Source: Pseudomonadota bacterium (GTDB lineage: Bacteria; Pseudomonadota; Gammaproteobacteria; Arenicellales; UBA868). Taken from it: DNA of 64,000 bases. Numbering within the stretch: the first letter of the stretch is position 1; every line of letters begins with the position of its first letter. Where the stretch lies: positions 1 to 64,000 of the forward strand of contig JABJIU010000012.1 in the NCBI GenBank assembly GCA_018661145.1. The letters are read 5' to 3'. The notes under the pieces are model-generated. The model had not been told where the DNA came from and searched no databases. It saw nothing but the letters and a program-made list of their open reading frames with translations. Below are positions 45,052 through 64,000 of the stretch, piece by piece. Both the position numbers and the translations under genes were made by a program.

Positions 45052-48000
45052 TCAATCGGGACAACCTTCAAGACCTCTACCCGCTTGCCCCGATGCAGGA
45101 GGGTATGCTGTTCAGCTGGCTGATGGCGCCTGAATCCAATGCCTATCGTGAGCAAATTGTTTACCGCCTGCGCGGGCCCCTGGACATCTTACGCTTCGAA
45201 AAGGCATGGAAGGCACTGGCCCAACGCCACGACATTCTACGAACAGTTTTTGTTCACGACAAAGCCGATCGCCCGCTTCAAATGGTGCTCAAGGAGGTCG
45301 ATGTCGGGTTTCGTACAGAGGACCTAAGAGGCCAGAAGCGCGAACAACGGGCGACGCACGCTTTGGCCTGCCGTCAGTTGGAGCGCGAACAACCTTTCGA
45401 CCTAGCGCGGGAGTTGTCGTCACGCGTCACAGTAATTCGATTATCCGAGAATGAATTTGAGGTCGTATGGACTTTCCATCACATCATTCTCGACGGCTGG
45501 AGTGTCGGCTTGCTAATGGCCGACCTCCTGCGCCTTTATGCGGGCATTGCGCTTGCGCCGACACCAAAACCCTATAGCCATTATATCAAATGGCTGGAGG
45601 CCCGGGACCAAGCGGCCAGCAGAGAGTTCTGGTGTGAAAGCCTTGCCGGCTACGCGGGTCAGGCAACCCTCCCCTCATCACGCCCCGGCTTCACTTCGCC
45701 CGACTACGAAGCCGCAACAACGACCTTCAACTTCGAGCCGGACGAGACCGCAGGGTTAGAACGCTTCGCCCGCGAACAAGGCGTCACCACAGGTGCTTTG
45801 ACACACGCCCTCTGGGCCATACTACTTAGTCGCTATCAGTCATTCGGCAAAGACATGTCGGGCGGTCACGATCTGGTATTGGGGACGGTGGTATCCGGTC
45901 GCCCGCCGTCACTTTCGGGCGTAGACACTATGGTGGGTCTGTTCACGAACACCGTCCCGTTGCGCCTCAAATTCTCAGATGATGATACTTTGGCGGAGGT
46001 TCTTTCACGAGTGCAGGACGGCATGCTGGCGGTTCAAGAGCATGCCTACCTCCCGCTCGCCGAGCTGCAATCCAAGTCGGGTATGGTAGAGCATGTCATC
46101 GCATACGAGAACTACCCGCGGGACCAGCAAATATCGGCGTCTGTCTCAGCCGGTGAATTTGGCTTCCAAGTAGAATCGGTCGAGGCGCTCGAACAGACGC
46201 CATATGATCTCAACGTCGTTTTTGTTCCCGGCGAGCGGCTCCACGTCACATTCTACTTCAACTCATCGCACTACAGTTATCAGCAGATAGAGCGACTCTT
46301 TGAGCAGCTGCGCACGCTTGCGTTAGCGATAGAGTCGTCACCACGCGCAAAAATTCGTGACCTCGACTTACTTCCAAAGCCGGAACGGGCCCTCCTAGCA
46401 ACCTTCACTAACGATCGTATCGACCGAGCCGGTCCAAAGACTATCAGCGCCTCCGTTGCCCAGCACATTCAGGCGACGCCCGACGCGCCGGCGATTATAG
46501 TCGGCGACAAGGTTCTTACCTACGAACAGCTTGACAGGCGGGTCGCACAGCTCGGCAGAGTTTTGTGCAAGGAGTTTGGCTTGGCTGCCGGGATGCGGGT
46601 AGCAGTAGCAGTCGAACGCGGACCGGAAACCCCGATCGCTTGGCTCGCAATTATGCGAGCGGGCGGAGTCTATGTTCCCATCGATCCGGATTTTCCGGCA
46701 GAACGCACGGCGTTTATGGTCAAGGACAGTAATTGCGCCATGGTTCTAACCGGTGCTGCGCACCTGCAAACACTGCGCGCCACTCTGAAGGACGTGGCTG
46801 TCCATGACATCCGCTCGCTGGCAGCGGCCGGCGCGATAGAACCGGTGCATGACGATCGCATGGTCGATGAAAGCGCCTACGTAATCTACACGTCCGGCTC
46901 TACCGGCCTTCCCAAGGGTGTTGCTGTAGGTCATCTTGGCGTACTGAACGTTGTCGCCCACATGGGCGAGCTTTACCCGATCGGGCTGGGTGATCGAGTA
47001 GTGTTCTTCGCATCACCATCATTCGATGCCTCCATCTGGGAAATGTGTATCGCGCTCTGCCATGGAGCCACGCTCGTGATTGCGGACCAGGCAACCGTAG
47101 CCGATCCAGGCCGCTTTGGTGCTTTCCTGCGTCACCACGGCTGCACAGTTACGATCCTGCCGCCGTCTTATGTGCGCCTTCTAGAACTGGAGGATCTCTC
47201 GGCGCTAAAGCTGTTGGCGACCGGCGGAGAGGCAACGGATACGGTCACTGCAGCTCGGCTCAGCGGTAGGCTCCTCTACGCCAATCTGTACGGACCGACA
47301 GAAACCAGCATCATGGTCACTTCCCACGTGGTGTCACCGCGCACGCGCTACACGCGCTCGGTGCCAATCGGTGCCCCCATACCCAACGTCGAAGCGCTGG
47401 TGTTGGACCAGGAAAACAGACTAGTGCCGATCGGCGCCCCTGGCGAATTATGCGTAGCGGGGGTCAACGTTGCGCTGGGTTACCTCAATCGCCCGGAACT
47501 CAACGCTGAACGGTTCCCCCCGCATCCGATGGACGACGGACAGAGCATGTATCGGACAGGCGACATAGTTCGATGGCTGGACGATGGGACGCTGGAACTC
47601 GTCGGGCGAGTGGACGATCAGGTAAAGGTCCGCGGTCATCGGGTTGAACTCGGCGAAGTACAGGCAGCCCTCCTCTCCTGCCCCGGGGTCCTCCAGGCGG
47701 CTGTCACGGCAGACCAATCCCCGGAGAGGACAGGCGAACTGAGTGCCTACATCGTTTCGCGCGCAGACCTGTCGTCCGCAGAGATTAGAAAGTATTTGCA
47801 GCGTACACTCCCGGAGTACATGATTCCCTCGCTGATCTCGTTCCTGAGTGAGTTGCCGCTGACGACCCAAGGCAAGCTGGATCGCGCAGCCTTGCCGGAG
47901 ATCTACCCCCATCGCCAGTCCCCGTCACCAACGGAAGTATCGTTCAACCCGCTGGAGACAAAGCTCCTGGATATCTGGCGCGAGGTCCACGGCACCCCCA

Positions 48001-51000
48001 ATGCCGGCGTCAACGAGAGTTTCCTTGACCTAGGCGGGCATAGCCTCACTGCTATTCGCCTTGCTGTGGAGATACGCAAGCGGATCGGCTATGAGGTTGG
48101 AGTGCGCGACATTTTCCTGCACCCGACCGTGGCCGATCTTGCACTGGCGTTGCATGGCGGCAACACGTCGATCGAAGCATCTATCCCGCGCATCCCGGAC
48201 GCGCCGCACTATGCTGTATCTGCCGCGCAGCATCGGCTTTGGCTCATACACAACCTTGGCGGTGACCCGGTCGCCTACAACGTCTCTGGAGCGTTTTCTA
48301 TTCAGGGACCGGTTGACGTAGAAGCCCTAAAGCGCGCTTGCTTTCACTTACTTGCCCGCCATGAAGCACTGCGGACCACCTACAGCCAGCACGACGGACA
48401 GCCGAGGCAGCAGCTTTGCCCGCCCGCTGACGACACGCTTGTTAGCACGGACGTAACAACCGCGTCCAACCCGCACGCAGAAGCCATGGCCCTATTCCAG
48501 CAGCTCAGCGAACAAACGTTCGACCTGGTACACGGTCCCCTGATCAGGATGCGGCTGGTAAAAGAGGGACATGAACACCACCTACTCATCGTCGTCCTCC
48601 ACCACATTGTCGCGGATGGCTGGTCAGTGGACATCATCATCCGTGAGCTTTCAGCGCTTTACGCGGCGAAAACGCAAGGAACTGATGACGGACTCCCCCC
48701 CCTCAGCGTGCAGTATCGCGACGTCTCGGCGTGGCTCAACGCACGGCCGATGACGGAACATGCCAACTACTGGCGCAGTAAGCTTGGTGGCCGCTTGGCC
48801 CAGCTCGAACTACCCCTGGATAGACCTCGGCCCCCGACGCGCACCTTTCGAGGGACAACCCACCGCTACGAGATCCCCGACCACGTCGTCCGAAACCTTC
48901 GGGTATTAGCCCGATCGGCGAACGCCACCCCTTTCATGGTGCTCGTCGCCGTCGTAAAAATACTGCTATCCCGCTACTCAGGGCAAAGCGACATATTGGT
49001 CGGACACCCTGTCGCGGGGCGCGACCATTCGGACCTGAAGGATCAGGTAGGTTTTTTCGTCAACACCATTGTGCTGCGCGACGAGGTTAGAGCGGACCAA
49101 GCCTTCTCGGTCTTTCTGGCCGAAATCCGGCAGACGGTGCTGGAAGGGATCGAACATCAGGCCTACCCTTTCGACCAGCTGATAGAGGAACTGGGCGCCG
49201 TGCGGACGCCCAGCAGGCACCCAGTCTTCGACGTGATGGTCTCCTACGAGGGCTCGCCGTCCGGCATCTTGGAACTTCCAGGCCTGCAGGTTGAGCCTGT
49301 CGACATAACCTCCCGGACAAGTAAATTTGATCTGCTCTTTGCGTTCAACGAGACCGCCGCCTCAATACACGCGGCGATCGAGTACTCAACGGACGTCTTC
49401 AACACATCCACCGTCGAGCGCATGTGGGGTCATCTGTTGACCCTTCTCGAAGCTGCGACAGCAGCGCCGCAGACAATCCTCCAACTCCTTCCCATGCTAA
49501 CCGGTGAGGAGCATTCACCGATACAACTTGGCGAGCCGACGCTGAGCGCGACCAGCACGGATGACAGTCTCGTCTCGCGCATCGAGCGTGCAATCGCGAC
49601 CTGCGCAGAGACCACCGCCGTGGTGTGTGGTGATGTTCGGCTCAGCTATCGCCAACTCGACAAACGGACCAGCGCACTCGCGCGGCGACTGGTGGCAGCC
49701 GGAGTGGTGCGCGATGTTCCCGTCGGGCTATATATAGACCGGTCTGTGGACATGCTCACAGGCATCATCGGCATCCTCAAAAGCGGTGGTGCCTACTTGC
49801 CACTCGACCCAAGCCTGCCGCCCCATCGTCTTCGCTCAATGCTTAACGACGCTGGCGCGACAATAGTAGTCAGCCACACTCGACTAGCATCGGAGGCTTC
49901 GCCGCTTGGGGCTCGGGTCATGCTTCTGGATAGCACCGGCTCCGAGGCTGACCACGTCCCCCTGCCCCTGGTAGGCGCCGTTAACCTTGCCTACGTTATG
50001 TTCACATCAGGATCTACCGGTAGGCCAAACGGGGTCATGGTAGAACATCGCAACGTGCTCGCACTGCTGGATGCGTACGAAAAACTGGCGCCCGCGCAGG
50101 CAGAATTGTCCGGCGCTGCACTTTGTCCATTTGGTTTTGACGTCTCCGTATGGGAAATATTCTCGGTGCTCACACACGCCGGCACGCTGCATCTGCTTGC
50201 CAGAGAAGATGCTGCAAACGGGCTTAGGCTGGTCGAGTACCTGCACAAACAGGGTATATCGAGCGCTTACGTGCCTCCTGCTCTGGTCGACGAGGTGGCA
50301 AAAGCCATCGCGGAAAGCGGCCGCTCGTCATTAAATCGATTGCTGGTCGGCGTGGAGCCGATTCTCCAGGACACTCTCGACCGGCTCCGAACCACCGTTC
50401 CTGGGCTGCGTATAGTGAACGGCTACGGCCCAACGGAAGCAACGGTCTGCGCCACGTTTCTGCTTTACGAGGGCCGCCCAGGTTCGGATACCCCCACACC
50501 TATCGGCACTGCCGCTGCTGGGTATGAAGTACATATCCTCAATGCAGACATGGAGCCTGTGCCAAAAGGCGTGGCCGGCGAGATCTTCGTTGGCGGCGCC
50601 GGCCTCTCGCGTGGATACGCCGGCAATGCCCCTCTAACCGCACAGCGATTTATTCCCAACCCCTTTGCGCGCTTGGCTGGAAAACGCCTTTACAGAACCG
50701 GCGATCTGGCGCGAATTCTGGCCGACGGCAACATCCAGTTCCTCGGGCGCAGAGACCAGCAGATGAAGCTGCGGGGCATGCGTATTGAGCCAGGTGAGAT
50801 CGAATACATCTTGTGCACTAGCTCGGCCGTACTTGAAGCCGCAGTGATGCTCCAGGACGCGCCGACCGGCGACAAGCAGCTGGTGGCGTATGTCGCGGGA
50901 GGCATCACTGGTGAGCAAGTGCCTCAGCTTCGAGCGCTGCTGAAGACGAAACTCCCCGAATACATGATCCCTGCGGCGTTCGTAGCGGTCCCGTCGCTGC

Positions 51001-54000
51001 CACGGACGATCAACGGGAAGGTGGACCGCGCTGCCCTCCACTTGCCCGCCACCCCCCTGCTTGCGCCACAGACCGCGGCTGGCCCACTGACCGCTACAGA
51101 GGAACGGCTGCTCGTCTTGTGGTCGGAAGTACTTCAAGTGGAACACCTCGGATGCGACGACGACTTCTTCGAGTTGGGAGGACACTCTCTGCTCGCGACA
51201 CGGTTGCTGGGCCGAGTACACGAGGCCACGGGGATTGAGTTGCCGTTACGGCAACTGTTCGAAGGGCGAACGATTCGCGAAACGGCAGCTTACCTGGATG
51301 CGCTCAACTCCGAAAAGCGCGACGAGCCGTCGCGGGTGCCGATAGATCCTGTCCGTCGCGACGCCACGCTGCGGCTGTCCTATGCACAGGAGCGTTTGTG
51401 GTTCCTCGAGCAGCTCGAACCCGGTTCAGCTTACAACGTCCCGGCCATTCTCGAACTAGACGGAGAGCTTGAACCCAAACGATTGGAGCAAGCCTTTAAC
51501 ACGGTCATCGACCACCACGAGGTTCTGAGAACGAGCTTCATCTCCATCGATGGACAGCCGGCCCAGGAAATCCTCGCCAGCCGGCCCGTTTCTATCCCCT
51601 GTCACGATCTCGGCAACCTCGACCAATCCTTGCAATCGGCCGAAGTGCGGCACCGCGCTGAGGCTCTTTCGTCTAGCCCCTTCGATCTAGTCAATGACGC
51701 GCTGGTTCGAGCGATCCTGCTGCGGCTTGCTCCGCAGCGACATGTCCTGCTGCTTTCGATCCATCACATCGTCGTGGACGGTTGGTCAATGAACGTTCTC
51801 TTAAAAGACTTGAGTGCCAGCTACAGAGGAAAGGCGCTTGCCCGACTACCGCTCCAATACGCCGACTTTGCGGCTTGGCAAAGGCATAAGGGGTACGAAG
51901 GGATGCTGGCAAGACAGGTCGATTACTGGCGCCACCGGCTCGCCGACCTGCCGCCGCTCCTTCCGCTTCCCATCGACCACCCACGCGAAACGGAGCGAAC
52001 AAGGAAGGCCGCCATCGAGCGGTTCATGATTGGAACCGAGCTGGTATGCGCAGTGAAGTCACGAGCCAGTGAATTACAAGTCACGCCTTTCATGATGACG
52101 CTGGCCGCTCTGGGGGCCTTGCTTGCGCGGACTACCGGTCAGAAAGACATTCCCATTGGCACGCCAATCGCGAACCGCACTCGCGCCGAGCTCGAGGACC
52201 AGATCGGGTTCTTTGCCAACACGATTGTTGTTCGCCTCGACCTGGAAGACAATCCAAGCTACGCCGACCTCGTCAGGCGAACCCGCGAAGCGACCGTTGA
52301 TGCCTATGCACATCAAGATGCGCCGTTCGAGCAGATCGTTAGCGCCCTCCAGCCTGAGCGAAGCCTAAGCCATACACCTTTGTTCCAGGTGCTCTTCATC
52401 ATGCAACACGAGGAGACATATTCTGCCTCGCTGCCCGGCCTGCAGGTTCGCTCTCTCCCACAGCCAGCAACGACAGCAAAGTTCGACCTGACCGTCGCGC
52501 TCGAAGAGAGGAACGGGACGTATACGGGTGCCATCGAATACGACAGTAGCCTTTTCGACCCCGGCACCGTTCGCTCGATGTGTTCACAGTTCCACACCCT
52601 GTTAGCCAGCGCAGTCGGCCACCCGGAAGAGCGCGTCAGTCGCCTGCCATTGCTGACCAATGCACAGCGTGAGGACATTGCCGAGCGGCAGACCGGAAAT
52701 GTAGCCGCTATATCCGAGGCTAAAACGGTAGGTGGGCTCTTCGCTGCCCAAGTCCAACGCACACCTCTTTCTGTTGCCATCGAAGATGGTTACACAAAAA
52801 CAACTTACGCAGAATTGGACGCACGAGCCTGTCGCCTGGCGCGCCATCTACGCAAACACGGCGCTGGACGGAATGTGCCAGTCGGCCTTTCTATTTCACG
52901 GAACACCGATGCTCTCGTGGGCCTCCTAGCCATCATCAAGGTCGGCGCAGGCGTGGTTCCGATCGATCCGTCTTATCCTTTAGAGCGCCAGTCGGCCATG
53001 CTCCGGGACGCAGGCGTATCGCTACTGGTCGGAATGAGCCTGCGGCAGCCAGCCGATACCATCGGCCCGGAGCACGTTGACCTACAGCACATTGACCTGC
53101 AGCGCGATGCAGCGCGCATTGCTGGGGAACCATACGAAGCGCTCCCGATAGAGAATACACCGGACGATCTCTTCTATTTATTGTTCACCTCCGGTTCTAC
53201 TGGCGTGCCCAAGGGCGTACAGGTCCCGCACCGCGTCATTACCAATCTGCTCGCGTGGGGAAGAACCGAAGACGATTTCGCAACACCCGCCCGCACGCTG
53301 CAGTTCACCTCCATGAGTTTCGACGTCTCGTTCCAAGAAATTTTCAGCTGCTGGGCCCATGGGGGGACGCTCGTCCTTATAGACGATGAACGGCGTCGTG
53401 ACTCGATGGCCCTGCTGGCTTTCCTCCAACAATATCGAATCGAGCGTCTGTTTGCGCCTTATGTCGCCCTCCAGGGACTGGCGGAGGCAGCGATCAACCA
53501 GCCTTACGATTGCCTGCCCACCTCCCTGAAGCAGATTGTAACCGCCGGGGAGCAGCTACGGACCACCCGCGCGCTAGTGCAGCTGTTCACGCGCCTGGAC
53601 GAATGCCGGCTGTATAACCACTACGGTCCAACCGAAACCCACGTCGTCACGGCCCATCGACTCAGCGGACCGCCATCAGAATGGCCGGCTCTGCCACCCA
53701 TCGGCCGGCCGCTCGCCGGCGTCAGGCTCTATCTGCTCGATGAGCAACAGAACCACGTTCCTGCTGGCGTAATCGGAGAGCTCCACGTTGGCGGCGTTGC
53801 GGTTGCCAGCGGCTACATCAACCGCCCCGGGCTGACGGCGGAACGCTTCCTGCCCGACCCGCACGGTGACGGAAGCCTAATGTACCGCACAGGCGACCTC
53901 GCGCGGCACCGCACCGATGGCTGCTACGAATTCTGTGGGAGAGCCGACGCGCAGATCAAAGTTCGTGGATTTCGTGTTGAACCCGGCGAGATCGAAGTTG

Positions 54001-55886
54001 CACTCATGCAGCACGAAAACATCGGTCAGGCGGTTGTCACGCTCAACTCCGGCAAAGGTCAGGATCGCCTGGTAGCCCACGTTTGCCCGAGCCCTGGCGC
54101 GGAGATCAATGTTGTCGAACTGCGCCAACATATAGCCAGCCTACTGCCTGAATACATGATTCCGTCTGCCTTCTCGATCCTGTCCAGCATACCGCTGACT
54201 GCAACCGGCAAGGTCGATCGAATACGGTTGCCGGATGCGGAGGCTGCACCTGAGCGACAGCGCATACCGCCCGAGACCGCTACCGAGCGCGCCCTCGCAG
54301 AGATATTCGAGCAAGTGCTGGAAGTGAATGATCTCGGAGTGACCGACAATTTCTTTGAACTCGGCGGGCACTCACTTCTTGCGACGCGCCTCATTTCGCG
54401 TATCCTCGGTACTTTCGGAGCACAACTCGCACTGAGAAGCCTGTTCGAGGCACCGACGATCAGGGAGCTCGCACGGGTCATCGAGGCTGCTAACACCAAC
54501 GCGATGCCCGAAGCAGTAATGAGTGTCGAACGGACCTACCCGCTACCACTCTCGTACGCGCAGGAACGACTCTGGTATCTGGACCGACTTTCGCCCGGGG
54601 CCGGCTACAACATGCCAGCAGCGCTTCGGCTTCAGGGGCCTCTTAATCTAAACGCACTTCAGGGCGCATTTGACGCCATAATTGAACGGCACGAGGTCCT
54701 TAGAACACGTTTTGTCGAGCAAGCGGGCGTTCCCGTTCAGTGCGTGGATACCGAGCAGGCCGTCGAAATAAAAATGATTTCGTTGCGGTCTGGCAACCCG
54801 GACGAGCGCGCGGCAGAAGTGCGTCGGCTTGCAGAGACGCAAGCAGGCACGCCCTTCGAACTCGCCAAGGGGCCGCTTCTCCGTCTGACCCTCCTCGACC
54901 TCGGTCAGAGAGAACACGTCCTGATCATTGTGCTGCACCATATTATTGCCGATGGCTGGTCCATATCGGTGCTGACCCGCGAGCTGGTCGCCTTCTACGT
55001 CGCGCTTTCTAGAGGCGTTCCTCACGTGCTACCTCCATTGCCACTCCAGTACGGCGATTTCTCCTGCTGGCAACGAGGAACGCAGACCACTCGAATACTG
55101 GAGTTACAACGGGAGTATTGGGCCGACAAACTGAAAGGTGCCGTCCCAGCCATTGCGTTGCCCGTGAGCAGGCAACGTGTCGGCAGGTCCGACATGAGCG
55201 GGGCAACCGTTGCGTTCGAGCTACCCCAAGAACTTGGCGACGCCGTCAGGGTTCACGCACAGGCCACTAAAACAACCGTCTACGCAACGCTCCTGAGCGC
55301 CTTTCTCGCACTACTCTTTCGCATCAGCGGGCAGTCTGATCTGACCATTGGCACGCCAGTGGGTCATCGCCCGCGACCTGAATTCGAACCTCTTATTGGA
55401 CTATTTCTGAACATGCTGCCCCTTCGAGTTCGCTGTGACGCGAACATGAGTCTTGCTGGATTGTGCGACGCGGTCCATGCGACTGCACTTGATGCCTTCG
55501 CTCAAGGCGACCTGCCCTTCGAGCAAATAGTGAATGCTGCAGAAACCAATAGAGAATCCACCCAATCGCCGCTATTCAACGTAGTGTTCGTGATGCAGAA
55601 CGCACCAAGCACTGAACTGGTTCTGGATGGCATCGACATCACACCCGTCGAATTCGAATCCGTGGTGGCCAAGTACGACATCACGCTGGCGCTCAAGGAT
55701 TCGGGCGGCTGCATCTCTGGTGGGCTTGAGTACGCAACCGACATACTCGACCTCGGAACAGCTAAACAATTGGTCGATGCGTTCATCGAGGTGGTAAACG
55801 CCATGACCAACGACCCGTCTGCACTTCTGATGGATCGATCAACCAACCTAAACCAAGCCGTCGACGACGAGGACTTCACATTTTGA
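45048..55886 (+). CDS. NRPS: C-A-PCP-C-A-PCP-C-A-PCP-C (ends in a condensation domain)
   Basis: Four HHxxxDG motifs (FHHIILDGWS, LHHIVADGWS, IHHIVVDGWS, LHHIIADGWS); three A domains (hand-read DAWIAGLIM(K) unassigned, DVWYLGGVC(K) unassigned, DVQFVAHVV(K) Pro-like); three PCPs (LGGHSLTAIR, LGGHSLLATR x2). No A or PCP after the fourth C. Confidence 0.94.
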   Translation: MINRDNLQDLYPLAPMQEGMLFSWLMAPESNAYREQIVYRLRGPLDILRFEKAWKALAQRHDILRTVFVHDKADRPLQMVLKEVDVGFRTEDLRGQKREQRATHALACRQLEREQPFDLARELSSRVTVIRLSENEFEVVWTFHHIILDGWSVGLLMADLLRLYAGIALAPTPKPYSHYIKWLEARDQAASREFWCESLAGYAGQATLPSSRPGFTSPDYEAATTTFNFEPDETAGLERFAREQGVTTGALTHALWAILLSRYQSFGKDMSGGHDLVLGTVVSGRPPSLSGVDTMVGLFTNTVPLRLKFSDDDTLAEVLSRVQDGMLAVQEHAYLPLAELQSKSGMVEHVIAYENYPRDQQISASVSAGEFGFQVESVEALEQTPYDLNVVFVPGERLHVTFYFNSSHYSYQQIERLFEQLRTLALAIESSPRAKIRDLDLLPKPERALLATFTNDRIDRAGPKTISASVAQHIQATPDAPAIIVGDKVLTYEQLDRRVAQLGRVLCKEFGLAAGMRVAVAVERGPETPIAWLAIMRAGGVYVPIDPDFPAERTAFMVKDSNCAMVLTGAAHLQTLRATLKDVAVHDIRSLAAAGAIEPVHDDRMVDESAYVIYTSGSTGLPKGVAVGHLGVLNVVAHMGELYPIGLGDRVVFFASPSFDASIWEMCIALCHGATLVIADQATVADPGRFGAFLRHHGCTVTILPPSYVRLLELEDLSALKLLATGGEATDTVTAARLSGRLLYANLYGPTETSIMVTSHVVSPRTRYTRSVPIGAPIPNVEALVLDQENRLVPIGAPGELCVAGVNVALGYLNRPELNAERFPPHPMDDGQSMYRTGDIVRWLDDGTLELVGRVDDQVKVRGHRVELGEVQAALLSCPGVLQAAVTADQSPERTGELSAYIVSRADLSSAEIRKYLQRTLPEYMIPSLISFLSELPLTTQGKLDRAALPEIYPHRQSPSPTEVSFNPLETKLLDIWREVHGTPNAGVNESFLDLGGHSLTAIRLAVEIRKRIGYEVGVRDIFLHPTVADLALALHGGNTSIEASIPRIPDAPHYAVSAAQHRLWLIHNLGGDPVAYNVSGAFSIQGPVDVEALKRACFHLLARHEALRTTYSQHDGQPRQQLCPPADDTLVSTDVTTASNPHAEAMALFQQLSEQTFDLVHGPLIRMRLVKEGHEHHLLIVVLHHIVADGWSVDIIIRELSALYAAKTQGTDDGLPPLSVQYRDVSAWLNARPMTEHANYWRSKLGGRLAQLELPLDRPRPPTRTFRGTTHRYEIPDHVVRNLRVLARSANATPFMVLVAVVKILLSRYSGQSDILVGHPVAGRDHSDLKDQVGFFVNTIVLRDEVRADQAFSVFLAEIRQTVLEGIEHQAYPFDQLIEELGAVRTPSRHPVFDVMVSYEGSPSGILELPGLQVEPVDITSRTSKFDLLFAFNETAASIHAAIEYSTDVFNTSTVERMWGHLLTLLEAATAAPQTILQLLPMLTGEEHSPIQLGEPTLSATSTDDSLVSRIERAIATCAETTAVVCGDVRLSYRQLDKRTSALARRLVAAGVVRDVPVGLYIDRSVDMLTGIIGILKSGGAYLPLDPSLPPHRLRSMLNDAGATIVVSHTRLASEASPLGARVMLLDSTGSEADHVPLPLVGAVNLAYVMFTSGSTGRPNGVMVEHRNVLALLDAYEKLAPAQAELSGAALCPFGFDVSVWEIFSVLTHAGTLHLLAREDAANGLRLVEYLHKQGISSAYVPPALVDEVAKAIAESGRSSLNRLLVGVEPILQDTLDRLRTTVPGLRIVNGYGPTEATVCATFLLYEGRPGSDTPTPIGTAAAGYEVHILNADMEPVPKGVAGEIFVGGAGLSRGYAGNAPLTAQRFIPNPFARLAGKRLYRTGDLARILADGNIQFLGRRDQQMKLRGMRIEPGEIEYILCTSSAVLEAAVMLQDAPTGDKQLVAYVAGGITGEQVPQLRALLKTKLPEYMIPAAFVAVPSLPRTINGKVDRAALHLPATPLLAPQTAAGPLTATEERLLVLWSEVLQVEHLGCDDDFFELGGHSLLATRLLGRVHEATGIELPLRQLFEGRTIRETAAYLDALNSEKRDEPSRVPIDPVRRDATLRLSYAQERLWFLEQLEPGSAYNVPAILELDGELEPKRLEQAFNTVIDHHEVLRTSFISIDGQPAQEILASRPVSIPCHDLGNLDQSLQSAEVRHRAEALSSSPFDLVNDALVRAILLRLAPQRHVLLLSIHHIVVDGWSMNVLLKDLSASYRGKALARLPLQYADFAAWQRHKGYEGMLARQVDYWRHRLADLPPLLPLPIDHPRETERTRKAAIERFMIGTELVCAVKSRASELQVTPFMMTLAALGALLARTTGQKDIPIGTPIANRTRAELEDQIGFFANTIVVRLDLEDNPSYADLVRRTREATVDAYAHQDAPFEQIVSALQPERSLSHTPLFQVLFIMQHEETYSASLPGLQVRSLPQPATTAKFDLTVALEERNGTYTGAIEYDSSLFDPGTVRSMCSQFHTLLASAVGHPEERVSRLPLLTNAQREDIAERQTGNVAAISEAKTVGGLFAAQVQRTPLSVAIEDGYTKTTYAELDARACRLARHLRKHGAGRNVPVGLSISRNTDALVGLLAIIKVGAGVVPIDPSYPLERQSAMLRDAGVSLLVGMSLRQPADTIGPEHVDLQHIDLQRDAARIAGEPYEALPIENTPDDLFYLLFTSGSTGVPKGVQVPHRVITNLLAWGRTEDDFATPARTLQFTSMSFDVSFQEIFSCWAHGGTLVLIDDERRRDSMALLAFLQQYRIERLFAPYVALQGLAEAAINQPYDCLPTSLKQIVTAGEQLRTTRALVQLFTRLDECRLYNHYGPTETHVVTAHRLSGPPSEWPALPPIGRPLAGVRLYLLDEQQNHVPAGVIGELHVGGVAVASGYINRPGLTAERFLPDPHGDGSLMYRTGDLARHRTDGCYEFCGRADAQIKVRGFRVEPGEIEVALMQHENIGQAVVTLNSGKGQDRLVAHVCPSPGAEINVVELRQHIASLLPEYMIPSAFSILSSIPLTATGKVDRIRLPDAEAAPERQRIPPETATERALAEIFEQVLEVNDLGVTDNFFELGGHSLLATRLISRILGTFGAQLALRSLFEAPTIRELARVIEAANTNAMPEAVMSVERTYPLPLSYAQERLWYLDRLSPGAGYNMPAALRLQGPLNLNALQGAFDAIIERHEVLRTRFVEQAGVPVQCVDTEQAVEIKMISLRSGNPDERAAEVRRLAETQAGTPFELAKGPLLRLTLLDLGQREHVLIIVLHHIIADGWSISVLTRELVAFYVALSRGVPHVLPPLPLQYGDFSCWQRGTQTTRILELQREYWADKLKGAVPAIALPVSRQRVGRSDMSGATVAFELPQELGDAVRVHAQATKTTVYATLLSAFLALLFRISGQSDLTIGTPVGHRPRPEFEPLIGLFLNMLPLRVRCDANMSLAGLCDAVHATALDAFAQGDLPFEQIVNAAETNRESTQSPLFNVVFVMQNAPSTELVLDGIDITPVEFESVVAKYDITLALKDSGGCISGGLEYATDILDLGTAKQLVDAFIEVVNAMTNDPSALLMDRSTNLNQAVDDEDFTF

Positions 55887-55914: not shown

Positions 55915-57924
55915 ATGCTGGTCCTAGGATGGCACGGCGGGCTCCGATCTGATGAGGCAACCGACCGAACCGGTGGCTACTCGACCCATGATGGTGCGGC
56001 GGTGCTGGTTCAAGACGGCAATATCGTTGCCGGCATAGAGGAAGAGCGGCTCAATCGAATAAAGCATTCGAATTTCTTCCCCGTTCTTAGTATCAGGTTC
56101 TGTCTTCAGCGCGCCGGCGCCCAACTGAGCGACGTTGACCTCATCGCACTGGATGCACAAGAGTCGGTGGTAGACGAATACGCGACCTTTCGTGCCCTGG
56201 TGGCACCAGAGCAACCGTTGATAAGCGGGCGCGAGATGATAGCACGCGTGTTCGAGGACATTTTCGGCGATGACGTGCGTCACAAACTACGTTTCTGCCG
56301 ACACCATTTGGCCCATATATACAGTGCTTTGTATGCATCCGGAAAACCGCATGGACTCGCCGTGGCACTCGACGGCGAGGGCGACCAACGTTCCGGCATG
56401 GTAGCGACGTTCACGGACTCCGGGATTACACCTTTACGCGAGTACTCTCCGGCTCAATCGCTAGGAGGTTTTTATACCACGGCGATCGCCATGCTTGGCT
56501 ATCGCCGCTTTGATGAGTACAAGGTAATGGGGCTTGCGCCCTACGGTGACCCCACGAAATTTCGACCACTGTTCAGCTCGCTATACTCACTTCTTCCCGA
56601 TGGTCAGTTCGAGTTCGTGCCTGATGGCCGACTTGTTAGCCTGTTCGCCGAGAAAGGCCTGTTGAGCCAGATTCGTCGGCGTGGTGAGCCCTTCACGCAG
56701 CTGCACAAAGACCTGGCCGCAAGCCTGCAGGAAGCAGTAGAACGGGTAGCCATGCACATTTTCGAACACCAGTCTCTCTCGACCGGTGAACGGACCCTAT
56801 GTTATTCTGGCGGGGTGGCGCACAACTGCACACTGAATGGGAAGTTGCTCTATAGCGGTCTGTTCGACAACATCTTTGTACAACCCGCAGCTCACGACGC
56901 AGGAAACGCGCTAGGAGCGGCGCTGGCGGCCGGCGCCGATGAGGGCATGCCCCTGAGAGTCGGGAACCGGTTAAATCTCTACCTGGGCACCGATGTGGGG
57001 ACAGAAGAGGTGATTGCAGAACGTCTGCAGGCCTGGAGCGGTTTGGTGCGTTACGAGCACCACAATGATATCACCGAACGTGCCGTTGACTTGCTTGTGG
57101 ATGGCTCAGTCATCGGTTGGGTGCAGGGGTGCTCGGAATTCGGACCGCGCGCACTGGGTAACAGAAGCATTCTGGCTGACCCACGACCACCTGAGTTCAA
57201 GCACCTCATCAACGCGATGGTCAAGAAGCGAGAAGGGTTTCGACCTTTCGCACCCTCTGTTCTAGAGGAACAACTGCACAACTTCTTTGAGGTTCCGGAC
57301 ACGTGCCAGTCCCTCCCGCATATGGTTTTCGTGGTCAGAGTCAAAGAAAAGGTACGGGAGTTACTTGGCGCAATCACCCATGTGGACGGCACAGCGCGCG
57401 TACAGACCGTCTCCCTGGACGACAACCCAAAGTATCACGCGCTAATAAAGGCTTTCGAAGATCGAACCGGCGTTCCGATACTGCTCAACACGTCCTTCAA
57501 CAACGACGTGGAACCAATAGTAGATTCAATCGACGATGCAGTGGTCTGCTTCCTGACCACCGACATCCACCATCTGGTGATCGGTAACCACCTGGTTTCC
57601 AAGCCGAAAGAGCTAGATCTACAAAGTATGCGCCTACTGATTCCGGGACTTCGGGCACATCAGAAGCTTGTACGTCAGACCCTTGAATCAGATCGTGATC
57701 ACCATCGGCATTCCATTGAGAGTACAGCGAGCGACTTCTTCGTGAAACCGGCAATAGACATCACAAGTGACACTTTTGCGGTGTTGGCGGCAGCTGATGG
57801 TGCCAGCACGCTCGATGCAATTTGTCGCGCTGCGCACGGCTCTGATGAGGAGCGGTCAGGCGCGGTTGTGAGCGAGTGTGCATATCTATGGGCTCGGCGT
57901 GCGGTAGTCCTTCTACCGACCTGA
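55915..57924 (+). CDS. O-carbamoyltransferase (NodU/CmcH/TobZ family), second copy
   Basis: HDGAAVLVQDGNIVAGIEEERLNRIKHS; CRHHLAHIYSAL; LCYSGGVAHNCTLNGKL; WVQGCSEFGPRALGNRSILADPRPPEF; ILLNTSFNNDVEPIVDS. Collinear paralogue of 38540-40543. Confidence 0.95.
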   Translation: MLVLGWHGGLRSDEATDRTGGYSTHDGAAVLVQDGNIVAGIEEERLNRIKHSNFFPVLSIRFCLQRAGAQLSDVDLIALDAQESVVDEYATFRALVAPEQPLISGREMIARVFEDIFGDDVRHKLRFCRHHLAHIYSALYASGKPHGLAVALDGEGDQRSGMVATFTDSGITPLREYSPAQSLGGFYTTAIAMLGYRRFDEYKVMGLAPYGDPTKFRPLFSSLYSLLPDGQFEFVPDGRLVSLFAEKGLLSQIRRRGEPFTQLHKDLAASLQEAVERVAMHIFEHQSLSTGERTLCYSGGVAHNCTLNGKLLYSGLFDNIFVQPAAHDAGNALGAALAAGADEGMPLRVGNRLNLYLGTDVGTEEVIAERLQAWSGLVRYEHHNDITERAVDLLVDGSVIGWVQGCSEFGPRALGNRSILADPRPPEFKHLINAMVKKREGFRPFAPSVLEEQLHNFFEVPDTCQSLPHMVFVVRVKEKVRELLGAITHVDGTARVQTVSLDDNPKYHALIKAFEDRTGVPILLNTSFNNDVEPIVDSIDDAVVCFLTTDIHHLVIGNHLVSKPKELDLQSMRLLIPGLRAHQKLVRQTLESDRDHHRHSIESTASDFFVKPAIDITSDTFAVLAAADGASTLDAICRAAHGSDEERSGAVVSECAYLWARRAVVLLPT

Positions 57925-58216
57925 GCTATGCCCGCACCGTTGCCGGTTTGGATCTCCCGTTCCGGCAAATAACCTTGACGCACAACCCAGCGCCGCCCCT
58001 CGGCGTCGGTCAAATCAGCGTAAACCGCGATATGGCCCTCAACTTCAGCCTCAATCGCCTGGGCCAGAAATTGCTGCGCCTGGGCCCGAAGCCAGAAATT
58101 GCTGCGCCTGGGCCCGAAGCCAGAAATTGCTGCGCCTGGGCCCGAAGAATGTCCGTCAGAGGATCATCGGAAAATGAACTTGGATGGCGTAATTCAACAA
58201 CTGTATCGTCTCTCAT
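57925..58216 (-). pseudogene. Truncated IS256-family (Mutator) transposase N-terminus
   Basis: MRDDTVVELRHPSSFSDDPLTDILRAQAQQFLA...(28-bp repeats)...QAIEAEVEGHIAVYADLTDAEGRRWVVRQGYLPEREIQTGNGAG resembles the IS256 transposase N-terminus. Homology stops at the end of the carbamoyltransferase gene. Confidence 0.8.
58063..58146. repeat. 28-bp perfect tandem repeat, 3 copies
   Basis: gccagaaattgctgcgcctgggcccgaa at 58063, 58091 and 58119. 28 is not a multiple of 3, so it shifts the transposase frame. Confidence 0.95.
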
Positions 58217-58283
58217 GACGCACCCCTTTCTTCGGAAAATCGGCGTCTTCATCAACGCCAAAATACGCAACCTTCAATCTCCA

Positions 58284-61200
58284 TTAACGAGTTTCAGCCA
58301 CAGCTCCTATTTCCTCACGCAGAACGTCAGCTACCCGGGCTACCAACGGCTCTCTGAGCAAATCGAAGTGTGTCCCCTCCAGCGAAACGACCCTCAGGGA
58401 ATGCGTTACGAGGCTCTGCCAGCCGTGCTCGGAATCATTAGGGTCCAATACCGCACCTGCGATATCCTCCTGCGCGGCGAACATTAAAACGCTCCCGGCG
58501 TACGACACTGGATGGTAGGCCTCACACGCCGCACCGATGGCGCCGAAGACCCGTAGCAGTCGGCGAGCGTCCTCAACGCCGTAACCTTCTGGCACCAAGC
58601 TGGCGGCCCGAGCGCGTGAAACGACGTATTCGAGGCGACGCTCAGGATCTTGGCGAAGCAAGTCCTCTTCGGTAAGCGAGAGACTATCACCAAACAGGCT
58701 CAGGACCTGTACTACCTCATCCGCGACCAGGTCGGCAGTCATCTTCAAGGCAGAAGGCGCGTAGGTATCAACAAGCGCCACCAGCGCCACAGTATGGCCG
58801 CGAGCGCGAAGCTGTTGCGCCATCTCGTAGGCGATTAGACCACCGGCTGACCAGCCGCACAGGTGGTATGGACCCGCGGGTTGACCCACCTGAATCGCGG
58901 ACACATAGGCCGAAGCCATAGCTTCGATCGTGTCGATAGGCGTTTGCCCTTCGAGCAAACCGCTGGCCTGCAGGGCATACACCGGATACTCCGGGCCAAG
59001 CGCATTTACCAGATCACCATAGCATGAAATAGATCCGCCCGCGGGATGGACGCAATACAGCGGCGGAAATACACCCTCGCCGCGCATGGTCACCAACGGC
59101 GACCACTCCGGCAAACTTGTGCCCTGCTCACGGATCATGCGGGCCATATTTTCCACCGTGGGTTGATTCAGAACCGCAGTTAGTGGCAAATCGACACTGA
59201 ATCGCTCCCTAACCTCTGCCAGCAGCCGAACTGCCAAGAACGAGTGTCCACCCAGGTCAAAGAAATTGGACCTGACCCCGATACCCTCGCGCTCGAGTAG
59301 TATTTCCCAGACAGCAACGACTTCCGTCTCAATAGCGTCGCGGGGCTGGACTGTCAGGGCATGCTCAATCGTTGCAACGACTGGCGGTCGTAACGCGTTT
59401 CGCGCAATGCTACCCTTCGCGGTACGGGGCAACTTCAAAGACACGTCGAACAGTTCCGGCTGCATATAGTAGGGCAAGTGCGCTCTCAAGTGTTCCTGCA
59501 TGCCGCCCACATCCACCATCTTAGGCTCGGATACCTCCACGTACGCAACCAGACGAATGTGACCCGGGGTGTCTTCTCGGATCACCACCGCGACATCGCC
59601 CACCATTGGATACCGACGCAGCACGGCCTCGATCTCGGTCAGCTCAATTCGATGGCCCCGGACCTTTACCTGCGTGTCGGTGCGCCCCAGAAATTCGATC
59701 TGCCCGTCTGGCCTGAAACGCGCACGGTCACCTGTTCGATACAGACGCGCCCCCGGCACGGTGCCAAACGGATGAGGAACAAAGCGCTCCGCCGTTGCGG
59801 ACCCATTGCCAAGGTATCCGCGCGCCACGCCCAAACCGCCCAGCCACAGTTCACCCTCGCTACCAGGCACTACCGGACGCATGCCGGTGTCCAGCACGAA
59901 CGTTTCCATATTTGCCATCGGTCGACCGATCGACGGGTCCCCCCTATCACCACCCGGATGACATCGTCCAATCGTGGCGCATACCGTCACCTCAGTAGGT
60001 CCGTAAGCGTTAAGAAACGTTCGTCCTGCAGACCAACGCTCGACAAGGCTTGCCGGACACGCCTCCCCTGCCACCACCAGCGTCGACAGCCCCGGCAATG
60101 GAGCGTCGGGAAGCAGTTCCAAGACCGAGGGTACAAGCGTAACATGTGTGATGCGTTCTCGTTTTAGAAACTGATGCAGGTTATCGCCCGGGAAGAGCTC
60201 GTCACGGCTTCCCAGGACTAGGGTCGCCCCAGCTGCAAGTGTCATGGCCATCTCGGAAACGGATGCATCAAAACCGAAGGATGCGAACTGCAGAACCCGG
60301 CTTGACGCGTTCACATTAAACGCGCGAATCTGCGCCGCCGCCAAGTTCGCAAGCCCCCGGTGGTGACACGCCACCCCCTTCGGATTGCCGGTCGAGCCCG
60401 AGGTGTAAATGATGTAGGCAAGGTTGTCAGGAACTGATTCTACGTGGTCTGTTAAATCCACTTGGGCGGTATCCGCAGTCTTTGCGCTCGAATCCGGTTC
60501 CAGTGATGGGCAGGACAGATCGCCCAACCGCGCATGGCCCGTTGGGTCAGCGATCACGACTCGTGGCCCAGCCTGCCCAAGCATGTACTGGAGTCGGGCA
60601 CCCGGATTTTCTGGGTCGAGAGGCAGGAAGGCCCCACCCGCCTTCAGTACGGCAAGAACTGAAACGACGCGCGCTATCGATGGTTGAAGGCACAAACCGA
60701 CGACCCGCTCTGGGCCGACGTCGAGCCGTCTTAGACGCATAGCGAGCTGGTCCGAGCGCGCATCCAGTTCCCTATAGGTTAGGCGCTCGCCAGCACACTC
60801 GACTGCCGTTGCTTCGGGGGTTTCCGTTGCTCGAAGCCTGAACGCTGTGTGCAATAGCGTATCGTCGAGCAGCTCCGGCGCCTGCATCCACTTCGTCAGA
60901 ACCTGGGATTTCTCAGTGCTCGTCAGCAGGTCCAAGTCGGCCAGGCGCACATCAGGGTTTATAACGCCCGCAGACAATGCTTCGCCAAGGCGCCATTTGA
61001 AGCGCTCAATGGTTGACTCGTCGAACAGAGCTGGCTTGTAAGTAATCTCAAGACCCAGCGCCTCCTCAGTCGGCGACATCAGAATGGCTATGTCCTCCGT
61101 CGTAGAGGGCAACGGACCGTGCAGGCCAGTACAACGGACGGATACATCAAAAAGAGGATATCTCCCGGCCTCTTCAGAAAGCCCTAAATCCCTGACTATG

Positions 61201-61691
61201 GAGGTATGCGGATACTGCTGGTGACGGTACGCTTTTTGAGCCACACCCTTTATATGAACAAGCAGTTCACGAAAGGTCTGTCCTTCGGAGAGGTCCATCA
61301 CCAACGGCAACGCGTTGGGTTCCAAGTCTTCGCCGCGAGGCGGTGAACCCAGCACCACGACACCAGAGCCTGTAATTCGGTGGAGCACCGATGCTACAGC
61401 GGCGAGAACAACCAAGTTTACCAAACTTGGTTTGCTTTGGGTCAGTACTTTCACCTTGCTCCACGTTGCACCAGTAATGCTCGAAAGCGAGGATCCGGTG
61501 CGCGCGTCCGATGCATCCCTGTTGCAGCGATCAGCCGGCACCGTGGACGAGCCGATATCTCGCGTCAAAGCTCCTCGCCAGAAATCTCTTGCCGCCAGAG
61601 TGTCTTTGTCGAACAGAAAGAGGCCTTGCCCTTGATGGCGCTCGGGACCTGATTGTGGAAAATTACTCACCATATTCCATCTACAGCGCAA
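58284..61691 (-). CDS. Terminal NRPS module: C-terminal half of a C domain-A-PCP-TE (Tyr-like A code)
   Basis: Begins in the C-terminal C subdomain (LAARDFWRGAL...VNLVVLAAVASVLHRITGSGVVVLGSPPRGEDLEPNALPLVMDL) with no HHxxxDG. A YTSGSTGNPKGV, hand-read code DASTVAAVC(K); PCP FFDLGGHSFLAVR; TE LCGWSAGGLIAYEMA. Listed start is TTG; an ATG at 61673 is more likely. Confidence 0.92.
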   Translation of the reverse strand: MRCRWNMVSNFPQSGPERHQGQGLFLFDKDTLAARDFWRGALTRDIGSSTVPADRCNRDASDARTGSSLSSITGATWSKVKVLTQSKPSLVNLVVLAAVASVLHRITGSGVVVLGSPPRGEDLEPNALPLVMDLSEGQTFRELLVHIKGVAQKAYRHQQYPHTSIVRDLGLSEEAGRYPLFDVSVRCTGLHGPLPSTTEDIAILMSPTEEALGLEITYKPALFDESTIERFKWRLGEALSAGVINPDVRLADLDLLTSTEKSQVLTKWMQAPELLDDTLLHTAFRLRATETPEATAVECAGERLTYRELDARSDQLAMRLRRLDVGPERVVGLCLQPSIARVVSVLAVLKAGGAFLPLDPENPGARLQYMLGQAGPRVVIADPTGHARLGDLSCPSLEPDSSAKTADTAQVDLTDHVESVPDNLAYIIYTSGSTGNPKGVACHHRGLANLAAAQIRAFNVNASSRVLQFASFGFDASVSEMAMTLAAGATLVLGSRDELFPGDNLHQFLKRERITHVTLVPSVLELLPDAPLPGLSTLVVAGEACPASLVERWSAGRTFLNAYGPTEVTVCATIGRCHPGGDRGDPSIGRPMANMETFVLDTGMRPVVPGSEGELWLGGLGVARGYLGNGSATAERFVPHPFGTVPGARLYRTGDRARFRPDGQIEFLGRTDTQVKVRGHRIELTEIEAVLRRYPMVGDVAVVIREDTPGHIRLVAYVEVSEPKMVDVGGMQEHLRAHLPYYMQPELFDVSLKLPRTAKGSIARNALRPPVVATIEHALTVQPRDAIETEVVAVWEILLEREGIGVRSNFFDLGGHSFLAVRLLAEVRERFSVDLPLTAVLNQPTVENMARMIREQGTSLPEWSPLVTMRGEGVFPPLYCVHPAGGSISCYGDLVNALGPEYPVYALQASGLLEGQTPIDTIEAMASAYVSAIQVGQPAGPYHLCGWSAGGLIAYEMAQQLRARGHTVALVALVDTYAPSALKMTADLVADEVVQVLSLFGDSLSLTEEDLLRQDPERRLEYVVSRARAASLVPEGYGVEDARRLLRVFGAIGAACEAYHPVSYAGSVLMFAAQEDIAGAVLDPNDSEHGWQSLVTHSLRVVSLEGTHFDLLREPLVARVADVLREEIGAVAETR

Positions 61692-61728: not shown

Positions 61729-62115
61729 TCATGATCGTCTTTCCCTCAGCCCTTGGCTGCCTGTGGAATGTTCTGGATGGCGCGCCGCCACACCGAAGAT
61801 CTCGGCGCGACACAAAGTATCAAAGGCTTCCAAATCGGTCCGGCGAATGAGATTTACTCTGTGCAACCTAATGCCGGTCAATATGACCCCGACTGCCGTG
61901 ATCGAGGTGAACAATTTGAATCTCTGCGCATAAACATAGAGCGCCATATTGGTACAAAACAAAACCAGCAACACCGTGGAGTTGATGATGGCCAGCAGCA
62001 CGGCGTTGGAGACTCCCGCAAAGAAAACGAGCCCCGTCATATCAAAATTGGATCGCCTCGAGTTACATCCGAGCAGGTGCATGAGAGAAAAGGTATTTAA
62101 AAATGCGTACTTCAA
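61729..62115 (-). pseudogene. 5' remnant of a cyclic-peptide-type ABC exporter (TM domain only)
   Basis: NTFSLMHLLGCNSRRSNFDMTGLVFFAGVSNAVLLAIINS...YAQRFKLFTSITAVGVILTGIRLHRVNLIRRTDLEAFDTLCRAEIFG resembles the N-terminal TM region of SyrD-like cyclic peptide transporters, then homology ends. No ATPase domain follows. Confidence 0.55.
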
Positions 62116-62975
62116 ACTCGCCTGTTTCCCAAGTTTCTCGCCATCGGCGACTGACGCCAGCTAATAATGGGCGACCCCTTGTCTCTTCCTTAGCAGAGAC
62201 GGCCTCGAGAGCGCCGCCCAAGCATAAAAACGGCCTAGTATAACCACCTATCAGGTTGGAGGGGCACGCATATCAATGCTAGCACTGGTGCGTCGCTGGC
62301 AGACGGCATGGCGTAAAGAAAGGGCGCCAAGAAGGACGACCGTACACGTCGACGAGATTGCAGTCTAGGTCGCCTTGGGGTTGGCAAATTATCACAATCC
62401 GAGACATATTCCTGCATTCACTTTCAAGGCCAGAAATCGGGAGACTAATAAAAGCCCTTTGGTCACAACGTGCGATTTACCTAGCGAGTGCCCAGCGTCA
62501 GAATTTGTTAGACAGACCGTCGCAATTGAATAAGAGAGCATTTTTGGTTCATCGTAGTCCCTGGAGGAGCAAAGGTGAGACCAGAACAACATCGGCAATC
62601 TGACGCCTACCAATGTTTACTTTGGGCGGGGACAGATAATTCTAATGAAGAGGGAGACAATCAAACGAAACACCATCCAGCAACTGCGCTTGCACGACCG
62701 AAAAAAACGCCGCTTAAAATGACAAATCAGATGCGCGGGACACTCAGTTAAACGATGCAGCCATCTGCCTCAAATAATCTGACCTCGGACAGTGGGTACC
62801 ATCCTAGCGGGATGTTCCGGCATCCCTCAGCTGCCCCGAGATTGGGTGGACTACGCCGAGGCCTGCCCGGAGCCATCCAATCGGCTGAGGCGGACTACCC
62901 TCGTTCGACCCGATCAGAAACACCAAAAATTAATTTGAGTTTCTGCAACTTTGATACCTGAATAGCCTAGGTATT

Positions 62976-63590
62976 CTAGACACCCTCGGTTCTCATTTTC
63001 TGCTGTCGTTCGAAGTCGACGGACCACAACATACCATTTCTCGCATGCTTTCGCTTTGGGTTATGGAGCATCTTGACATAGTCCGACACGTCCTGCCTCG
63101 TCTCGGCTCGCGTTTTATAGACGCTGCGCCGTCTACGTTTCCGCTTGAGCAAATTAAAGAAGCAATCCAAGACCGCGCTGTCATGACAGTTTCCGCGCCG
63201 GCTCACCGAATGCTTCAGAGTGTGCGCTTTAGGACTGACGCCCAGTCCCTGCTAGTGAACTGTCCCCCTGCCCTAGTCCGAGTAGGTCAGTACTCTGTTC
63301 TTCGGTTTCTTAAACCACACCGCAATGAGCAATGCCTGCAGGACGACATCTGTGGTCTGACGGCTTTGCATTAATCAGCCGATGAAGCGACAGGAGTAAA
63401 GATCGATCACAACGGCCAGATAAGAGAAACCTTCCCGTGAGCGAATGAGTCCTGACCCTGCGCACCAGATGAGATGGTATCAAGAATGCTGCCAGAGAAC
63501 CTGCGGTTCAGATCGGATGTCGCGGCAGTGAATGTGCAATCAAGGGATTCCTGGTTCCCCAGTCACAGCCAGAACGAGTGACTCACTTTT
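62976..63590 (-). pseudogene. Decayed IS3-family transposase (C-terminal part intact in 62976-63206)
   Basis: MSRRGNCHDSAVLDCFFNLLKRKRRRRSVYKTRAETRQDVSDYVKMLHNPKRKHARNGML is an IS3 OrfB C-terminus. Upstream minus-strand pieces REGFSYLAVVIDLYSCRFIG*LMQSRQTTDVVLQALLIAVW and TYSD are interrupted by stops/frameshifts. Confidence 0.8.
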
Positions 63591-64000
63591 CTTTTGCCGT
63601 TAACAAAGCCCCTATGCGTCAACTAACGCAACAATGCGGAGAGGTTGAAAACGAAACTCGCATGCGGTACACCCTTTGAGCCTGAGTCCTTTCTCTCACC
63701 ACCTGAAGATTAGACGTTATGGTCGCGGTTAAGAAAATAACCCCTAAGAAAGTGCAGTCAAAAAAGAAAACTCTGTTAGAGTTGATGCCGCGCGGTCCTT
63801 GCGAGGCACTTCCAGATGCGGCCGCGGGTGATGCGGAAACTGCGGAACCCTGCCTAGGCACGGTCGAGTGGGCAACCCATGCGGCATGTGGTATTAGCCG
63901 CCGTGATAGGCCCGTAGTGGCCAGCTTGTGATGAAGCGTCGCTCTCTTTCGCCTTGGTTCGTATCGTGGCATCAGCGGCCAGATGCAGAAATTCGTCTGT

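Follow-up and report, generated by a model that had tools for sequence, protein, structure and literature searches.

A candidate split termination module with a half-condensation domain, encoded on opposite strands in a gammaproteobacterial lipopeptide gene cluster

RESULTS

Two complementary synthetase proteins lie on opposite strands

The window analysed in this study, that is, the whole stretch of 64,000 nucleotides at positions 1 to 64,000 of contig JABJIU010000012.1 (assembly GCA_018661145.1, a gammaproteobacterium of the order Arenicellales), carries on its plus strand a large nonribosomal peptide synthetase (NRPS) gene and, beyond a carbamoyltransferase gene, a minus-strand gene whose product consists of half a condensation (C) domain, an adenylation (A) domain, a thiolation (T, or PCP) domain and a thioesterase (TE) domain (Table 1). 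The two proteins may together form one split termination module. The plus-strand NRPS closes with a complete fourth C domain that spans positions 5–442 of the 456 of the Pfam Condensation model and is followed by neither an A nor a T domain; the Pfam match and the HHIIADG motif agree on this point, as claimed in an earlier note made from the DNA letters alone (the original prediction). The protein ends at 55886 and not at 57.9 kb; the left edge of the region given in that note is the end of the carbamoyltransferase gene. The third A domain of this NRPS has the code DVQFVAHVVK, which we take to be Pro-like.

Table 1 Features of the split module and its surroundings
Feature	Position	Strand	Basis or remark
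NRPS, (C-A-T)x3-C, upstream half of split module	45048-55886	+	Pfam
Terminal C domain, complete, HHIIADG, no A or T after it	54543-55832	+	Pfam, alignment
C-terminal tail, ...NQAVDDEDFTF, putative docking motif [DE]-hydrophobic-x-F	55833-55883	+	
Carbamoyltransferase, NodU type, between the two halves	55915-57924	+	
Decayed IS256-family transposase N-terminus, truncated against carbamoyltransferase stop	57925-58216	-	tblastn 57.5% to IS256 transposase, E 2e-12; frames broken
Perfect tandem repeat, 3 x 28 bp, within IS256 remnant	58063-58147	.	
Half-C-A-T-TE protein, 1135 aa (1129 aa from ATG at 61673), downstream half of split	58284-61691	-	Pfam, AlphaFold model
Type I TE domain, GWSAGG, Asp and His present	58353-59063	-	
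T (PCP) domain, LGGHS	59133-59312	-	
A domain, nine-residue pocket DASTVAAVC	59391-60839	-	
Codon of Ser761, replacing A10 catalytic lysine (GrsA K517)	59409-59411	-	A-domain alignment
C-lobe stub of C domain, without N-lobe, IGxFVNT segment and second loop	60906-61604	-	
Remnant of cyclic-peptide export ABC transporter	61729-62160	-	tblastn E 2e-7 to annotated cyclic peptide exporter
IS3 transposase remnant (C-terminal end)	62976-63251	-	NF033516 E 1.2e-13, PF13333 E 7e-7
Type II TE gene, 5' start in window	63910-64000	+	runs to 64677 on contig
Phosphopantetheinyl transferase (PPTase), after type II TE gene	64739-65523	+	

The half-C domain of the minus-strand protein matches positions 189–455 of the same Pfam model only. 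In the AlphaFold model of the protein (pLDDT 82.8 overall) this C-lobe is folded with good confidence, and a structure search with the model led to ordinary C-A-T-TE termination modules in the PDB (4zxh, 5ja1, 2vsq). A full-sensitivity hidden Markov model (HMM) search for C domains in all six frames of 55.8–69.0 kb revealed no N-lobe and no further HHxxxDG motif, which rules out a hidden N-lobe or a frameshift upstream of 61691 and settles the original prediction's own caution that an HHxxxDG half might have been overlooked there. The β-hairpin docking domain TubC_N is absent from the protein and present on the products of 21138–24572 and 30162–34967.

The TE of this protein is the sole type I TE in the 2.46-Mb assembly (263 contigs, about 90% complete); the only other strong TE is the free-standing type II enzyme on the same contig (domain at 63994–64668, plus strand). 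The earlier statement that the only TE-bearing module lies on the minus strand and lacks the HHxxxDG half is thereby borne out. Whether another C-A-PCP-TE gene takes up the chain is answered in part: no other type I TE is present in the assembly, but a second NRPS is cut by a contig end and the assembly is incomplete. This second NRPS (L002, positions 1–2054 of contig C237) combines a C domain of the starter-like type with an A domain that is truncated where the contig ends; at its opposite end, C237 shows 79% identity over 87 bp to the IS3 remnant at 62974–63060 of the window.

Collinear relatives share the architecture and a C-terminal tail motif

Among 105 genomes of the family containing Paenibacillus whitsoniae, eight Paenibacillaceae genomes were found to have open frames of 1087–1109 amino acids. 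Those read closely encode half-C (model positions 188–443)-A-T-TE proteins, with the gene for an NRPS that closes with a complete C domain 40–200 bp upstream on the same strand, so that relatives with a collinear final module, which the original prediction proposed to look for, do exist. Some of these clusters contain a second, internal junction, at which a C-ended protein is followed by an A-starting protein with a stub at its front. Comparison with Table 1 of PMC3479019 suggests that their A-domain codes are Dab-like (DVGEISAIDK) and, in the terminal protein, Leu-like (DAWIIGAIVK), and the codes suggest that the clusters may make octapeptin-like lipopeptides. Among 109 genomes of the window's own order, no orthologous cluster was found, only carbamoyltransferase homologues (41–48%) in unrelated contexts.

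The C-ended Paenibacillaceae proteins terminate in ...IEFAF, ...AIDIVF or ...AIDFVF, and the window NRPS in ...DDEDFTF. A terminal [DE][FILV]xF was present in all nine distinct intact C-ended NRPS tails, window included, and was absent from all of 167 further distinct NRPS tails and 1348 further open reading frames (ORFs) (chance from composition 7e-4), figures in which the eight Paenibacillaceae tails represent two related groups and for which the pattern was generalised after the window tail was known. Two seemingly C-ended, motif-free proteins (L056 and L031) have the look of disrupted reading frames and do not enter the count. The collinear pairs and the shared tail, together with the annotation of the pelgipeptin synthetases considered below, support the earlier proposal that the orphan C domain and the half-C protein are complementary; the further proposal that the half-C may serve in docking or as a structural relic fits them as well. 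A terminal C domain might also release the peptide onto a free amine, in the manner of glidonin or rhabdopeptide-type systems, leaving the minus-strand protein uninvolved. Free amines are known acceptors for some terminal C domains (PMC10587159), and C-domain release has been reviewed (PMC11546977); nevertheless, both the tail motif and the gene content point to a pair of C domain and half-C instead and no gene supplying an amine was seen, making such a release very unlikely here.

The half-C domain appears to be an old stub

The more degenerate N-terminal C-lobe stubs, that of the window among them, all lack the same two loops, namely the IGxFVNT segment and a second loop. Because the same loops are gone from independent old stubs, the alignment indicates that the window half-C is old and no fresh cut; a recent truncation of a normal C domain is ruled out on the same ground. 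In published structures, a latch and a floor loop of the C-lobe extend to the N-lobe (PMC11546977), and the segments missing from the stubs may correspond to these two elements. A C-lobe tree requires at least two independent origins of stubs, the window stub forming a long branch of unsure placement. Further stub proteins were sought in 399 genomes of the phylum, and the fetched candidates proved to be contig-edge or full C domains.

N-terminal C-lobe stubs also occur in multimodular cyanobacterial NRPSs, and half-C-A-T-TE proteins stand alone in a Methylobacter, a Rhodoblastus and a Synechococcales metagenome-assembled genome. Around the stand-alone genes L028, L072 and L075, the fetched flanks hold no other C domain, and polysaccharide or housekeeping genes lie nearby. 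The occurrence of this architecture on its own would fit an independent enzyme that landed beside the cluster by chance. Such an origin is improbable for the window gene, whose composition is cluster-like, which lies between cluster genes and which has an orphan C domain with a matching tail close by.

The A domain has lost its A10 lysine in an otherwise open gene

The minus-strand A domain retains core motifs A1–A9. Its pocket, DASTVAAVC, is presumably Tyr-like and recurs unchanged in the terminal module of L015, whose A domain is the closest relative. The A10 motif reads AKGSIAR, with Ser at the position of the catalytic lysine. In the adenylation half-reaction this lysine has a stabilising role, and it is regarded as both invariant and essential (PMC11253843). 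Self-loading of the A domain is therefore probably impaired, to judge from this substitution.

The C-lobe and the A domain show above-usual deviation at conserved positions, and none of 25 near-invariant residues is changed in the TE. The ORF is intact over 1135 codons. By a rough estimate, neutral change matching the excess A-domain deviations would have given about three to four stops in the ORF; because drift of that size would be expected to bring several stops, selection has probably maintained the ORF over most of that period. The readings left are an A domain that still works slowly, loading of the T domain by a different enzyme, or early decay.

The gene lies amid mobile-element debris

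The minus-strand gene lies between the IS256 (insertion sequence) and exporter remnants, inside a plus-strand operon that resumes with the type II TE and PPTase genes, an arrangement that supports the earlier suggestion of an inverted cluster end. GC content at third codon positions is 0.615 in the gene, about 0.60–0.655 in the NRPS and polyketide synthase (PKS) genes of the cluster and 0.46 in left-flank genes. These observations fit a cluster gene that was inverted locally or inserted again. A simple inversion splitting one C domain is ruled out, since the plus-strand C domain is whole and its match to the model overlaps that of the stub. IS256 copies elsewhere as drivers of the rearrangement are likewise ruled out, there being none in the assembly.

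Because the IS256 remnant abuts the carbamoyltransferase stop, the junction at 57925–58216 is either a true breakpoint of a rearrangement or a join made during assembly. In the latter case, the minus-strand segment would have been misjoined to the carbamoyltransferase end through the IS256 remnant and its 28-bp repeats, and a repeat-bearing remnant exactly at the junction of a 263-contig draft is what such an error would leave. We regard this as the least probable of the explanations considered, given that the assembly contains no second copy of the remnant or of IS256, that the segment is cluster-like in composition, and that tail and stub make a matching pair.

A large lipopeptide cluster surrounds the pair

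The rest of the locus (6416–45051 and 55915–57924) is a large FAAL-PKS-NRPS lipopeptide cluster, which also encodes two carbamoyltransferases as well as two hydroxylases of the cupin/JmjC type. We assume the A codes of the cluster to be Thr-, Gly-, Gln-, Gln- and Pro-like. In the PKS module at 17062–21138, the acyltransferase domain is probably degenerate and in need of loading in trans, because only positions 64–117 of 319 of its Pfam model are matched. At 920–3696, a Band 7/SPFH protein and a cyclic-peptide-type ABC exporter are encoded at 46–47% GC, compared with 55–60% in the cluster. Past the type II TE and PPTase genes, the 69-kb contig carries an IS3 transposase and an integrase. The GC contrast and the IS3 elements near both contig ends suggest a horizontally acquired island. 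No close DNA relatives were found among plasmids.

DISCUSSION

In this study, we identified a C-ended NRPS and a half-C-A-T-TE protein that may represent a termination module split between its C and A domains and evolved to act in trans. Under this proposal, the peptidyl-T of the last plus-strand module would be the donor and the T domain of the minus-strand protein, carrying a last residue chosen by the Tyr-like pocket, the acceptor; the terminal C domain of the plus-strand NRPS would condense the two, and the TE of the minus-strand protein would release the product. The half-C would be non-catalytic, an old C-lobe stub packed on the A domain, and would probably be the N-terminal surface on which the terminal C domain docks with its [DE]-hydrophobic-x-F tail. 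Later, the second half would have been inverted or re-inserted amid mobile-element debris and would have lost the A10 lysine, with self-loading probably impaired. To this mechanism as a whole, we assign a probability of about 0.5.

A split of the pelgipeptin type (C/A-T-TE) is recognised by an upstream NRPS whose last domain is a complete C domain without A or T, a separate A-T-TE protein that lacks a complete C domain, a gene for this protein that follows the first directly and in the same orientation, and a full A-domain catalytic set including the A10 lysine. The window has the first and the second. The third is absent, the carbamoyltransferase gene and the IS256 remnant intervening and the strand being opposite, and so is the fourth, with Ser761 in place of the lysine.

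Several further observations speak against the proposed mechanism, to which the late generalisation of the tail pattern must be added. The lysine is kept in all 144 other aligned A domains, making the Ser unique among 145, and it is present in all other half-C-A-T-TE proteins compared. The minus-strand gene is flanked by decayed genes on the strand opposite its partner, its codon usage falls at the lower limit of the cluster range, and a promoter scan for it gave nothing above chance. No C-ended partner accompanies the half-C-A-T-TE proteins L028, L072 and L075 in the flanks fetched. Finally, neither the window stub nor the terminal C domain is sister to its Paenibacillaceae counterpart in the tree, for which reason the likeness between the pairs would be due to parallel evolution or to a very old pair.

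Because the A10 lysine is missing, present-day function is doubtful, and the gene might be a decaying remnant: the pair would once have been functional, but after the rearrangement and the loss of the lysine no residue would be loaded, so that the chain would be released otherwise (by the terminal C domain, the type II TE or hydrolysis) or the pathway would be dead. The Lys-to-Ser change is accompanied by changes in neighbouring motifs, and the excess deviations at conserved A and C-lobe positions, the debris on both sides and the lack of a promoter would all be expected of such a remnant. On the other hand, the 1135 codons are fully open, the TE and T motifs are intact and all other core A motifs are retained, and we consider decay unlikely, while giving it more weight than any other rival explanation.

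Beyond the split itself, the stub and the acidic [DE]-hydrophobic-x-F tail may constitute a distinct docking pair for C/A splits that arose more than once (in Paenibacillaceae and in this lineage) and would still work here across opposite strands. Both sequence features of such a pair are found in the window, namely the DFTF tail and a stub lacking the N-lobe and the two loops. A literature search, thin on subscription journals, yielded no description of a docking pair of C tail and C-lobe stub. We put this forward as a tentative suggestion, held with less assurance than the trans-acting module.

Half-C domains are usually dropped by annotation as truncated or inactive. If they dock short C-terminal peptides, they would mark a natural cut point between C and A domains, the junction that NRPS engineers most want for the exchange of parts, and genome miners could pair split modules that are not neighbours. 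In addition, a module that is otherwise conserved but has lost its catalytic lysine offers a case for how a release module erodes or changes its role.

Parts of this arrangement have been reported in other systems. Like the window, the thermoactinoamide synthetase ThdA has an N-terminal truncated C domain, called probably inactive (PMC7253712), although it stands in an initiation module rather than a termination module. In syringomycin biosynthesis, the last module is likewise distributed over two proteins, SyrB1 and SyrE, acting in trans (PMC8949500); however, the split there is A-T from C-T-TE, a shuttle enzyme is involved and no half-C stub has been described. Module 13 of the glidonin synthetase also stands at the end of its assembly line and has a TE beside a defective A domain (PMC10587159), but its C domain is in the same protein and uses free putrescine. 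A closer likeness is found in pelgipeptin synthetase of Paenibacillus elgii, in which PlpE ends in a C domain and PlpF is a separate terminal A-T-TE protein of 122.9 kDa, the gene order matching the known product (PMC3479019). By our estimate from its mass, PlpF exceeds the need of three domains by about 250 residues, which would leave room for a half-C. Unlike the window, the pelgipeptin genes are collinear, Lys517 is present, the code is for Ser and no half-C was reported (PMC3479019).

The half-C-A-T-TE proteins of Paenibacillaceae (L153, L156, L157 and L159–L167) share with the window protein an upstream C-ended NRPS with a [DE]-hydrophobic-x-F tail, a half-C that starts at model position 187–188 and the loop losses. 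They differ in lying on the same strand as their partner across the short gap of 40–200 bp, in keeping the catalytic lysine and in having a Leu-type code, and their stubs, at 23–26% identity, are not the sister of the window stub. We conclude that the window probably holds a split termination module of a type already known, with a docking feature that is likely undescribed, and that in this genome the module was relocated and its A domain damaged.

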